The notes beneath the pieces are model-generated. The model saw nothing but the letters and a program-made list of their open reading frames with translations. It had not been told where the DNA came from and searched no databases. Below are positions 1,906 to 6,181 of a stretch of 64,000 bases of DNA, one piece after another (within the stretch, counting starts at the first letter, position 1; the number at the start of each line of letters is the position of its first letter). Both the position numbers and the translations under genes were made by a program. The stretch comes from Sulfurovum lithotrophicum (GTDB lineage: Bacteria > Campylobacterota > Campylobacteria > Campylobacterales > Sulfurovaceae): assembly GCF_000987835.1 (NCBI RefSeq), contig NZ_CP011308.1:1054001-1118000 (forward strand). The letters are read 5' to 3'.

Positions 1906-2181
1906 CTATCCCAGCAATGCGCGCATCATGAAGGTATCGATGAATTGCAGTCCGAGGATAATGACAAGAGGAGAGAGGTCAATCCCGCCAATGATCAAAA
2001 ACGGCATTTTCCTGCGAAGAACATCATAGACCGGTTCTGTCAGTCTGTAAAGGATCTGAACGATCGGATTTCTAGGGTCGGGCCGTACGAAACTCAGTAG
2101 TGCGGCGATAATGACGATCCAGATATAGAGATTGATCACCGTATGGATCAGTTGTACGATAGAATAGATAAGTGCATTCAT
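1906..2181 (-). CDS. yggT: YggT family inner-membrane protein
   Basis: A 91-residue membrane protein with two hydrophobic helices, one near residues 8-30 and one near 65-88, and the family-typical PDPRNPIVQILYRLTEPVYD segment between them. YggT proteins are conserved small membrane proteins, implicated in some bacteria in cell envelope or division functions; the exact role is not settled. Its ATG overlaps the TGA of gltX (ATGA), which indicates translational coupling, and slt follows 5 bases downstream. Confidence 0.88.
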   Translation of the reverse strand: MNALIYSIVQLIHTVINLYIWIVIIAALLSFVRPDPRNPIVQILYRLTEPVYDVLRRKMPFLIIGGIDLSPLVIILGLQFIDTFMMRALLG

Positions 2182-3464
2182 GATGCTACCTCCAGTAGAT
2201 AAGATTTGATGTATGGGTAAATGTCGCTCAGCTCAGGGCCCTGTTCGGCACCGGTCAGCAGTACTCTGAGCGGTTTGGAGAAGTGCTCGCCACTCAGGCC
2301 GCTCTCTTTCATGAGGTGGGATTCGAACGCCTCAAAAGTAGCGAACATCGGCGCCTCTGCGATGATCTTTTCGAGTATACGCATCTGCTCTCCCCACTTT
2401 CCGTCAAAGTCCTTTGGCGAGAAGATTGCTTTGATCCTGGCATCAAGTTCATTGATGGTGGCAGCCTCTTTCATGTAGAGTTTGGCCAGTTTCCCGATAT
2501 CTGCATCGGCGAACCCGAAGAGTGAGGAGAGTCTTTTATCGTCTATCCTTTCAAGGTGTTTACGGTTTAGAAGACGCAATTCTTCAATATCGAATTTTAC
2601 TGGCGATCCGGAGAGTTTGCTGATGTCGAACCACTTGATCGCCTCAGGCAGGGTAAAGATATCAGTAGGTGTGGTGTTGCCCGGCAAAATGAGGTAGTTG
2701 GCGATGGCATCGGGGATGTAACCTTCTTCAAAGAGCCATTTGACTGTAAAAGCATTGTCACTTTCGCTCATCTTTTGGCCCTCTTCGTTGAGAATGATGG
2801 GCAGGTGAGCGTAAGTCGTCTCTTCCTTGTAGCCAAGCTGCTTTTTGATATATTCCTGCTTTGGTGTCTCGTGGAGGTGCTCCTCGCTGCGGATGATGAA
2901 GTCGATACCCGAGAGCATATCGTCACAGGCCGAAGCGAAATTCTCGGTCGGTGTAGCGTCTGCTCTCAGAATGACAAAGGAGTCCACTTCATCTGCAGGA
3001 GTGATGCTCTCGCCTTTGTAGAGGTCATAGATGACAATATCATCTTCGGGCTTTTTTAGACGGATGACAAAAGGGAGCTTCTGCGATTTGAGCCTTTTAA
3101 GTTCCTCTTTGTCGACATCAAAACACTTTCCATTGTAACGGGATGGTGTCTTGTCTGATTCAAGCGCTTCGGGTGTACAGGTACAGACAAAGGCCTTTCC
3201 CTCTTCGAGCAATCTGATGGCAAGGGTCTGGTGGATGTTGAGATGTTCGCTCTGATGAAAGACCGAATCGTGTGTGATAGCGAACTTTTCCAATATCTGC
3301 AGGATCTCGGTATCTTTTCCTGTAATATTGCGCTCTTTGTCTGTATCTTCAATACGCACGATGAAGTTGGTTTCTTTCTGTTTGGCCACGATGTAGTTGA
3401 ATATCGCTATACGCAGCTGTTCTGTACGCATGTCACCCGTAGGTGACGGGGCAAATCTAAGCAT
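2178..3464 (-). CDS. gltX: Glutamyl-tRNA synthetase 2-like, degenerate signatures
   Basis: Class I aminoacyl-tRNA synthetase of the GluRS family, 428 residues, with an SD (GGAG) 8 bases before the ATG. The N-terminus FAPSPTGDM and the segment RIEDTDKERN match GluRS2 of Helicobacter, which charges tRNA-Gln with Glu for later amidation. Two catalytic signatures are abnormal. The HIGH position (about residues 13-16) reads RTEQ, and KMSKS (about 231-235) reads KMSES. The usual GEDH motif reads SEEH. The reading frame is intact and full length, so this is not a simple pseudogene; it may have lost charging activity or taken another role. A GlnRS gene lies directly upstream on the opposite strand. 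Confidence 0.85.
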   Translation of the reverse strand: MLRFAPSPTGDMRTEQLRIAIFNYIVAKQKETNFIVRIEDTDKERNITGKDTEILQILEKFAITHDSVFHQSEHLNIHQTLAIRLLEEGKAFVCTCTPEALESDKTPSRYNGKCFDVDKEELKRLKSQKLPFVIRLKKPEDDIVIYDLYKGESITPADEVDSFVILRADATPTENFASACDDMLSGIDFIIRSEEHLHETPKQEYIKKQLGYKEETTYAHLPIILNEEGQKMSESDNAFTVKWLFEEGYIPDAIANYLILPGNTTPTDIFTLPEAIKWFDISKLSGSPVKFDIEELRLLNRKHLERIDDKRLSSLFGFADADIGKLAKLYMKEAATINELDARIKAIFSPKDFDGKWGEQMRILEKIIAEAPMFATFEAFESHLMKESGLSGEHFSKPLRVLLTGAEQGPELSDIYPYIKSYLLEVAS

Positions 3465-3627
3465 TCATCTTACTCCAAAAGTCGTGACTTTATAGCACCT
3501 TTATTATGGCTGTTATTATAGTGAGTTTATTATTAGAAATGCCCTCCACTTCCAAAATATCCGTAGCTTACAAGATGCATAAGCTCTAATTCGATAAAAT
3601 ACAGCTTTTAAATAAAGGTTGGCAAGA

Positions 3628-5877
3628 ATGAATGAGAGCAAAGATTTTTTACGTACCATAGTGGAAGAGGACCTGGCATCAGGCAAGTTTCAAGAGGTTC
3701 ATACAAGATTTCCTCCCGAGCCCAATGGTTTCCCTCATATCGGACACGCTAAATCTATCGTTATAAACTTTGGTATTGCGCGTGACTATCATGGACGCTG
3801 CAACCTCAGAATGGATGATACCAATCCGATCACAGAAGATACCAGGTATGTTGAAGCTCTCAAGGATGCCGTACATTGGCTCGGCTTCGAGTGGGATGAC
3901 GGGATACGCCATACCTCCGACTATTTCCCCAGGTTGTATGACTATGCCGTTCAACTCATTAAAATGGGCAAGGCATATGTCGACAGCCTGAACGAAGAGG
4001 AGATACGTGAGTATCGGGGGACCGTAACAGAGCCTGGAAGACGCAGTAAATATGCCCAACGCAGTGTTGAAGAGAACCTTGACCTTTTTGAAAGAATGAA
4101 AAATGGTGAGTTCAAAGAGGGAGAGCATGTTCTTCGTGCAAAGATCGATATGGGTGCGGCCAATATGCAGCTGCGCGATCCACTCCTCTATCGTATCAGG
4201 CATGTACATCATCACAGGACAGGAGATACATGGTCTATCTATCCCATGTATGACTTTGCTCACTGTCTGTCTGACTATATTGAAGGTATCACGCACTCTT
4301 TTTGTACCCTGGAGTTTGAGAACAACCGTGCTATTTATGACTGGGTTCTGGATACGCTGGAGCTTGAACCGCCGCGTCCCTATCAGTATGAATTTGCAAG
4401 ACTTGCTATCACTTACACGGTGATGAGCAAAAGAAAACTTTTAGAACTGGTCAATGAAGGAAAGGTCAACGGTTGGGATGATCCCCGTATGCCAACCATC
4501 GCCGGATACAGAAGAAGAGGGTATACAAAGGAATCCATCCTGAATTTCTGCGACCAGATAGGTATCGCAAAAGCGAATTCGACGGTGGATGTCGCACAGC
4601 TTGAATTTGCCATCAGGGACGACCTCAATACAAAAGTGCCGCGTGTGATGTGTGTGCTTGACCCCCTGAAGGTCACCATTGAAAACTATGAAGGTTCCGA
4701 AGAGATCGATGCCTCCTACTATCCGCATGATGTACCCAAAGAGGCTTCAAGAAAACTGCCTTTTTCAAAAGAGATATATATTGAGCGTGATGACTTTGAC
4801 GAGAACCCGCCAAAAGGGTATTTCAGACTCACCCCGGAACAGCCGGTAAGACTGAAACATGCCTATATCATCACCTGTAAAGAGGTGGTGAAAGATGCCG
4901 ATGGCAATGTTGTAGAGATCAAAGCGGAGTACCATCCCGACTCCAAAAGCGGGCAGGACACCAGTGGCATCAAGGTCAAAAGTGCGATCCACTGGGTTGA
5001 TGCGAAGGGTGCAAAGAAAGCGGAAGTCAGACTCTACGACAGGCTCTTTAAAGAAGAAGCCCCCAAAGGGATGGAAGATCTCAACCCTGACTCTTTGAAG
5101 GTGATAGAGCATGCGCTTGTCGAACCGGCAGTCATCACTGAAAGACCCGATGAAAGGTTCCAGTTCGAAAGACAGGGCTATTTTTATGCCGACCCTGTCG
5201 ACTACAGTGATGAGCACCCAGTGTTCAACAAGATCGTCGCGCTTAAGGACTCCTGGAGCAAAAAGAGAAAAGCCCCTGAAAAAGCACCCAAGCCTCAACC
5301 CAAAAAAGTGCAGATAGACGGTGAAGTAGCTCCAATGAACGAAGCCGAGCAGGCACGCTTTGACAAGTACACAGATGAATTGAAACTGGGCACCGAAGTG
5401 GCCAATACACTGGCCCGTGACGAGAAACTCTCCCATTTCTATGAAGAAGCACTTTCTGTGCTTCAGAGTCCTGTATCACTTGCAAATATCGTGGCCAATG
5501 AGGTTGCCAGGGAGCTGAAGGAAAAAGAGATCGATGCGCTGAAATTTACACCAAAGCAGATTGCAGGGCTTGTGAAAATGGTTGAAGAAGGGACAATCTC
5601 AAGCAAAATCGCAAAACAGGTTTTTGAGGAGATGACAGTTTCCGGAAAGGATCCTGAAAAGATTGTCGAAGAAAAAGGCCTTGTGCAGATCAGTGATCCT
5701 GCTCAAATTCTGCCTATCATTGAAGAGGTCATGGCAAAAAATCCGGACAATGTCGCCAAATTCAAAGCCGGGAACACCAAGCTGTTAGGCTTTTTTGTGG
5801 GGCAGGTACTCAAAAGCACAGGGGGAAAAGCAAACCCTAAAGTGGTGAATGAGCTTGTAGCCAAAAAGCTGAAGTAA
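3628..5877 (+). CDS. glnS: Glutaminyl-tRNA synthetase with C-terminal YqeY domain
   Basis: Charges tRNA-Gln directly with glutamine in the cytoplasm. The 749-residue protein has a class I catalytic core (PPEPNGFPHIGHAKS with intact HIGH; VMSKRK as the KMSKS loop), then beta-barrel anticodon-binding domains to about residue 540. After a Lys/Pro-rich linker, a YqeY/GatB-tail-like domain runs from about 575 to the end (GKANPKVVNELVAKKL). This architecture is known from Deinococcus GlnRS. An upstream TTG at 3619 has no usable SD spacing; the ATG at 3628 has AAGG 10 bases upstream. Many Campylobacterota, including H. pylori and C. jejuni, lack GlnRS and use GatCAB, so its presence is notable. Confidence 0.93.
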   Translation: MNESKDFLRTIVEEDLASGKFQEVHTRFPPEPNGFPHIGHAKSIVINFGIARDYHGRCNLRMDDTNPITEDTRYVEALKDAVHWLGFEWDDGIRHTSDYFPRLYDYAVQLIKMGKAYVDSLNEEEIREYRGTVTEPGRRSKYAQRSVEENLDLFERMKNGEFKEGEHVLRAKIDMGAANMQLRDPLLYRIRHVHHHRTGDTWSIYPMYDFAHCLSDYIEGITHSFCTLEFENNRAIYDWVLDTLELEPPRPYQYEFARLAITYTVMSKRKLLELVNEGKVNGWDDPRMPTIAGYRRRGYTKESILNFCDQIGIAKANSTVDVAQLEFAIRDDLNTKVPRVMCVLDPLKVTIENYEGSEEIDASYYPHDVPKEASRKLPFSKEIYIERDDFDENPPKGYFRLTPEQPVRLKHAYIITCKEVVKDADGNVVEIKAEYHPDSKSGQDTSGIKVKSAIHWVDAKGAKKAEVRLYDRLFKEEAPKGMEDLNPDSLKVIEHALVEPAVITERPDERFQFERQGYFYADPVDYSDEHPVFNKIVALKDSWSKKRKAPEKAPKPQPKKVQIDGEVAPMNEAEQARFDKYTDELKLGTEVANTLARDEKLSHFYEEALSVLQSPVSLANIVANEVARELKEKEIDALKFTPKQIAGLVKMVEEGTISSKIAKQVFEEMTVSGKDPEKIVEEKGLVQISDPAQILPIIEEVMAKNPDNVAKFKAGNTKLLGFFVGQVLKSTGGKANPKVVNELVAKKLK

Positions 5878-6143
5878 GGGCACATCTAATAACCCCAGAT
5901 GCTCATAACATCTCTAGCTTTTGTCTAGGCTAGGCACTCTTTTGAAGGCCTAGCCGTAGCTAAGTCAAAAAAGAGTAACGACGCATAGGTGAAAGCTAGT
6001 GGTACCCGTAGGGTGGGCTTTGCAAACGCGATCTTTCACAAGATGCTTACTTCGTCTTAGCTTTGGCTAGGACTTGAAAGCCTCTTGCAAAATCTCACAT
6101 TTGCAAAACCCATTATGGGTATCTGGGGTTATTAGAGGTGCCC
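5878..6143. mobile_element. MITE-like element with 31-bp terminal inverted repeats
   Basis: A 266-bp non-coding element bounded by imperfect inverted repeats. The left end (5878-5908) and the reverse complement of the right end (6113-6143) agree at 28 of 31 positions, both beginning GGGCAC(A/C)TCTAATAACCCC. It starts at the base after the glnS stop codon. Inside are further inverted pieces: CTTTGCAAA near 6034 against TTTGCAAAACCC near 6100, and GGCTAGG-type repeats around 5925-5960 and 6066. It would therefore fold into a long branched hairpin. There is no transposase or ORF, and no clear target duplication. It could be a MITE or a structured intergenic repeat. Confidence 0.7.
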
Positions 6144-6181
6144 ATCAGAAAGATTATATTTAGGAAGGATTTTCTTGTGTT

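Follow-up and report, generated by a model that had tools for sequence, protein, structure and literature searches.

The interior of a MITE is usually regarded as neutral filler between the ends that the transposase requires. In IS5-family MITEs, the terminal repeats and 4-bp target duplications are shared with complete IS, and the elements are non-coding, mostly intergenic and multi-copy. REPINs and BIMEs follow another plan, in which two inverted homologous hairpins form a unit that is moved by RAYT. According to a review of prokaryotic MITEs (PMC10969869), transcripts with stable folds, and processing by RNase III, have been reported for the Correia elements of Neisseria, and effects on mRNA for ERIC.

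Here we describe a 266-bp repeat behind glnS in Sulfurovum lithotrophicum. It lies in a stretch of 64,000 nucleotides (contig NZ_CP011308.1, positions 1,054,001 to 1,118,000; hereafter the window, to whose first letter our coordinates refer). The repeat shares with IS5-family MITEs all the traits given above, whereas its glnS-type interior is not an IS deletion derivative and its conserved fold also occurs with other end types. With REPINs and BIMEs, on general knowledge, it has the paired inverted homologous hairpins in common; it differs in its much larger size (approximately 268 bp for elements with the module) and in that its ends and target duplications are those of elements with a DDE transposase. 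Like Correia, ERIC and QMITE, it is small and palindromic with folded transcripts, the fold being predicted in our case. Going by the descriptions in that review, it is set apart from these three by a two-arm RAGGC/AACG module with several ends, which is absent from PMC10969869. By analogy, the RNase III processing of Correia elements may be the closest functional precedent.

In its mobility, therefore, the element is an ordinary MITE of a known kind, and it carries a conserved fold that is combined with several transposon ends. The open-access literature, with subscription papers and ISfinder outside its scope, gave no description of the module in Campylobacterota. Searching the window against Rfam 15 gave no match at the gathering score, and the permissive matches look like chance; at 12 loci with related elements, Rfam recognized two nearby tRNAs only.

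Position and shape of the element at glnS

The features of the locus are as follows.

3619..5877, + strand: glnS, the gene directly upstream of the element, with the stop codon TAA at 5875-5877
5874..5877, + strand: left flank GTAA, which includes the glnS stop
5878..6143, + strand: the whole element, a non-coding MITE of 266 bp, one of about 11 near-full copies in the S. lithotrophicum genome
5878..5908, + strand: left terminal inverted repeat, 31 nt, complementary to the right one at 28 of 31 positions
5878..5894, + strand: transposase-recognised end GGGCACATCTAATAACC, with 1 mismatch to GGGCACCTCTAAWAACC, common to complete IS5-family elements
5912..6001, + strand: arm A, a long hairpin that folds better on the + strand
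5924..5988, + strand: 65-nt core motif R1, built as RAGGC, 8 bp, apical CCTAGCCGTAGCTAAG, 8 bp, AACG
6004..6014, + strand: mini-hairpin between the arms, ACCC-GTA-GGGT
6015..6111, - strand: arm B, a long hairpin and inverted homologue of arm A that folds better on the - strand
6036..6091, - strand: degenerate R1 motif in arm B (23.4 bits, E 3e-4)
6113..6143, + strand: right terminal inverted repeat, 31 nt
6127..6143, - strand: transposase-recognised end, matching GGGCACCTCTAATAACC exactly
6144-6147: right flank ATCA

A sequence-only reading had described this repeat as a MITE-like element with matching ends, a branched hairpin and no coding capacity, and our analysis bears out this outline. 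The terminal arms (5878-5908 and 6113-6143) are complementary at 28 of 31 positions (90%), the inner inverted repeats are located at 5914-5999, 5941-6079 and 6014-6112, and the longest stop-free stretch over six frames is 36 codons. The claimed ends also coincide exactly with those of the family: in the alignment, nearly every copy starts with GGG and ends with CCC, and the length is 265 or 266 bp in 107 of 112 copies. The predicted RNA fold of the element has an energy of -126.4 kcal/mol, as against -71.5 +/- 4.8 kcal/mol for shuffled sequences (z = -11.5), and none of 200 shuffles is equally stable. The R1 model scores 84.7 bits (E 8.5e-23) on the core of arm A at 5924..5988, a copy that belongs to the training set.

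The element begins at 5878, the first base after the glnS TAA, as had been noticed. It had further been proposed to replace the 3′ end of the glnS mRNA. It does sit right after the stop, but it is inserted between the stop and the native downstream sequence, which resumes past the element and aligns with the sequence of a relative. On the other side of glnS, a glutamyl-tRNA synthetase-like ORF (2178-3464) adjoins the gene. The GlnRS ORF itself is long, at 752 aa, and seems to be extended at the C terminus.

Copies, target duplications and empty sites

The single-contig S. lithotrophicum genome (2.22 Mb) holds about 11 near-full copies with 82-100% identity, plus truncated ones. Further copies are present in many Sulfurovum genomes and in some other genera and families of the order. 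The repeat is thus dispersed from genus to order level; a single copy at the same place in all relatives, the pattern that had been named as refuting a mobile element, did not arise. The insertions are mostly intergenic and multi-copy.

Exact 4-bp duplications flank 65 of 112 clean copies, compared with a mean of 8.0 and a maximum of 16 in 2000 shuffles, and no other duplication length stands out comparably in these copies. The targets are AT-rich (TTTA, TAAA, ATAT, TTAA, ATAA). The glnS copy is without an intact duplication (GTAA/ATCA), which also applies to a good number of other copies. In the closest relative G024, whose glnS end is 90% identical, the site reads uninterrupted as AAAATAA|GGAAGGTTATATTTAAGAAGG. 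The site is vacant in 28 other relatives as well, and the proposed check for empty sites thus came out in favor of a MITE. A copy in G129, flanked by a TTAA duplication, has split the coding sequence of a reverse transcriptase, whose protein frame resumes beyond the copy. On the basis of its terminal repeats, duplications, copy number and empty site, the 266-bp repeat is a non-autonomous mobile MITE.

A structured RNA fixed at this place, or a terminator for glnS, would explain the strong fold and the position directly after the stop codon. We consider it extremely improbable, because the copies are dispersed with target duplications and none of the 29 relatives shown has the element at glnS. 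Moreover, no more than one weak terminator-like match lies inside the element, where 0.5 are expected by chance.

Beyond cellular chromosomes, the plasmids searched gave one partial match only, in a Sulfurovum mangrovi plasmid, and the phages and IMG/VR gave no match to the element. In genome G016, we observed about 20 near-identical copies of 265-266 bp (L240-L259), most with perfect duplications; a search of this complete genome for a DDE_Tnp_1 transposase found none. From these sequences, the G016 copies may represent a recent burst whose transposase has since been lost.

The S. lithotrophicum genome also holds shorter pieces. Solo ends of approximately 20 bp (GGGCACCTCTAATAACCCTAA..), with no second end nearby, locate at G000:C1 904919, 1219542, 1266494, 1524341 and 2148763 (L062, L066, L077, L069 and L071 in this order), and may be what excision or the loss of an IS left behind. 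Mini-elements, about 30-50 bp long, consist of the two ends alone, at G000:C1:979323-979372 (L014), 1888811 (L088) and 143617-143648 (L085); L014 has ATTA on either side.

Ends shared with complete IS5-family elements

To the sequence-only reading, no matching known family came to mind. The ends do belong to one, the IS5 family (NCBIfam IS5_4), and the full-length elements with matching ends and a transposase that it had suggested looking for were found. The element ends (17-19 bp) are those of complete IS5-family elements of about 1.25 kb, which likewise make 4-bp duplications. In G057, a genome of the same genus, locus L124 contains an IS5-family transposase gene, behind which lies the exact 18-bp end of the element; the final 18 bp of the glnS copy are the same as this IS end. 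L124 is identical to L160 (record JALSUP010000211.1, Sulfurovum sp.). The G057 transposase scores 172.8 bits against NCBIfam NF033581, with a cut-off of 140. Its relatives belong to complete elements, mostly 1.2-1.35 kb long with GGGCACCTCTAAAAAC-type ends, in Campylobacterota and other phyla. An exact 4-bp duplication flanks 18 of 29 complete IS with such ends.

An internal-deletion derivative of an IS5 element was considered and rejected, since the full element matches the IS at the terminal 17-22 bp only. Comparing the interior with the fetched IS loci by blastn gave nothing above chance. The element is thus an IS5-family MITE by its ends and not by internal deletion.

The S. lithotrophicum genome was searched for a matching IS5_4-type transposase and none was found, so its copies look like relics of past activity. 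As for the three DDE_Tnp_1 transposases of this genome, matching ends are absent nearby, and we rejected them as partners. At L144 (G057:C206), we notice an IS1182-like transposase gene with the same GGGCACCTCTAAAAACC end about 160 bp further on, which may be either the own end of the IS1182-like element or a solo end.

Conservation of the interior fold

The consensus structure of 73 aligned copies (alignment A1) is composed of the terminal stem, arm A, the mini-hairpin and arm B. In this alignment the structure pairs 97.9% of cells, and at 59 of 96 pairs both partners have changed. In slid controls, with the partner shifted by 1-3 columns, these values drop to 33-48% paired and 14-18 doubly changed pairs. 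For example, the stem ACTCTTTT/AAAAGAGT becomes ACACTTTT/AAAAGTGT, ACTCACTT/AAGTGAGT or CATCTTT/AAAGATG in other copies, and G129 has AGATAAG/CTTATCT in place of CTAGCTTT/AAAGCTAG. In a structure-free covariation analysis of the whole alignment, the top seven column pairs are all pairs of the structure. A tree-based null, under which six pairs alone pass E < 0.05, is conservative, and we therefore rely on the covariation rank and the slid controls.

Inverted repeats are known to undergo correction between their arms. The paired changes could then be a by-product of template switching or gene conversion between the arms, without selection, as the inner terminal stem might suggest, having switched in blocks from CCCTAGATG to TAGGTGATA. 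Such correction would be expected to remove unpaired positions and wobble pairs, whereas the RAGGC/AACG internal loop and conserved U-G pairs are kept. It also predicts neither the opposite wobble polarity of the two arms nor the constant size and motif across different ends, both described below. We regard this explanation as improbable.

Selection, on the other hand, appears to have kept the fold, which retains its size and shape even where the transposon ends around it are quite different. The interior is a conserved structured module rather than neutral filler. That the repeat is a MITE and also carries such a module is, both taken jointly, highly probable.

Opposite strand polarity of the two arms

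Comparing the fold energies on the two strands revealed that arm A is stabler as + strand RNA in 65 of 73 copies, and arm B as - strand RNA in all 73 (mean -48.5 vs -34.5 kcal/mol). The substitutions on the tree follow the same polarity. Changes from Watson-Crick to wobble pairs, set against changes to A-C, number 51:6 in arm A and 13:36 in arm B (Fisher p 2.5e-11), counts that lean partly on structures from RNA energies and come from events on a tree of mobile copies, which are not fully independent. With the pairs predicted on both strands alone, the polarity is weaker (p 2.5e-5). Arm A on the + strand and arm B on the - strand both carry the apical CCTAGCCRTAGCTAAG, and their local alignment scores 46, where shuffled sequences reach at most 38. 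The element thus consists of two homologous hairpins in inverted arrangement; reading inward from either end, one meets the hairpin next to that end in the polarity that it prefers.

The wider R1 family repeats this polarity, in 25 of 31 decided cases for arm A and 28 of 30 for arm B. The orientation of neighbor genes is unbiased, as expected for a symmetric device: among 49 contexts, 16 are ++, 12 --, 12 -+ and 9 +-. Whole copies are on average stabler on the minus strand, so that no single strand can be called 'the' RNA.

Two other ideas about the arms were rejected. A single + strand RNA had been indicated by an initial wobble count of 109:56, which was biased by the + strand structure; the strand-symmetric repeat of the count gave the opposite polarity of the arms. 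A kissing interaction of the two apical loops was dropped as well, as their complementarity simply follows from the arms being inverted homologues.

The module with other transposon ends

Weak matches in other families proved to be elements of the same plan whose stems differ, as do the terminal repeats of some. Matches to R1, a covariance model of the 65-nt core of the arm, were found in 51 of 298 genomes of Campylobacterota, representing 20 of 58 genera and about ten listed families. Strong matches outside the training set include L447, L450, L451, L454, L460, L464 and L467 (E 1e-12 to 4e-19). The matches are mostly inward-facing pairs about 105 nt apart. Folding their surroundings gave the same plan in nearly all; these elements measure 262-280 bp, and 45-52 nt separate the core from the end. 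At three or four loci no element stood out clearly.

Over 65 distinct arm sequences, RAGGC ... AACG is nearly invariant. All 19 pairs are doubly changed, and 94.6% of cells are paired, as against 30-54% in slid controls; these pair counts lean towards the model structure, to which the Infernal alignment (A3) was fitted, whereas the invariant loop and the constant size are independent of it. The covariation score of the R1 arm is 0.75 vs at most 0.23 in slid controls.

Other end types on elements with the module include GGGCACCTCTAA, TAAGTCCTTAATCAAG, AAGTACCTAACC, ATTACCGCACCGAC, TAACTGACCTTA, TAGACTTCTTGCATAA, AGGGTGGCTCTCATT and ATACCATCGGTAACT. A further type, TAGACTTCTT[G/T]CATAACC, matches the ends of an IS that is 909 bp long and present in four copies in G274; its reading frames are HTH_Tnp_4 and DDE_Tnp_4, and its target duplications appear to be 3 bp long (AAT). 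Judged by its sequence, this IS is a putative second, different IS5-like partner for the module, the pairing with a transposase having been examined for two of the many end types.

The different ends bear on whether the fold acts at the level of DNA. Hairpins extruded by each end, from single-stranded or supercoiled DNA, might help the transposase or a host factor to assemble the ends, so that the fold would be selected for mobility. The arms are indeed symmetric to the two ends, with the motif facing inward from each, and their near-constant sizes and spacing are what a nucleoprotein assembly would predict. DNA too tolerates G-T pairs, and the opposite polarity of the arms also fits a scenario in which selection acts on hairpins of single-stranded DNA placed symmetrically to the ends. 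However, the autonomous IS share the terminal 17-22 bp only and have no arms, which argues that their transposase does not need them, and the same arms are found with the ends of another IS. We consider a role in transposition rather unlikely.

Two observations depart from the common plan. L522 (G292) and L525 (G139) are 166-bp elements with TAGACTTCTT[T/G]CATAACCC ends and one long hairpin with the apex CATAGCC..GCTAT, possibly a one-arm relative of the module. L479 (G240:C1:2011421-2011588) is exceptional in having both R1 cores on one strand, and its second arm is correspondingly without the opposite-strand preference.

A model for movement and for the role of the fold

We propose that an IS5-family transposase acting in trans would recognize the 17-19 bp ends and excise the element, which would then insert into AT-rich 4-bp targets and duplicate them. 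The ends, the duplications, the empty site and the interrupted gene support this model of movement. The interior fold, two inverted homologous hairpins around a mini-hairpin, is maintained by compensatory change and may act in RNA. A transcript entering from either side would first meet an arm in sense polarity, making the device neutral to direction. The fold may cap, process or insulate the read-through transcript, so that insertions beside genes, such as the one behind glnS, would do little harm, and this low harm would favor the survival of elements that keep the fold. For such a role in RNA, we put the chances at about even.

We suggest, more tentatively and with chances somewhat below even, that the double hairpin could be an independent structured module that persists in Campylobacterota by repeatedly gaining different IS ends, and a direction-neutral RNA device that makes insertions at the side of genes tolerable. 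If this is true, the fold would be the conserved entity and the transposon ends interchangeable, and the module would be new to Rfam. The geometry of the interior is conserved over about ten families of one phylum, though the stems and even the ends change. If confirmed, the module would represent a new class of structured nucleic acid that rides several transposases, and would offer a testable case of selection on the effect of a non-autonomous transposon on host transcripts.
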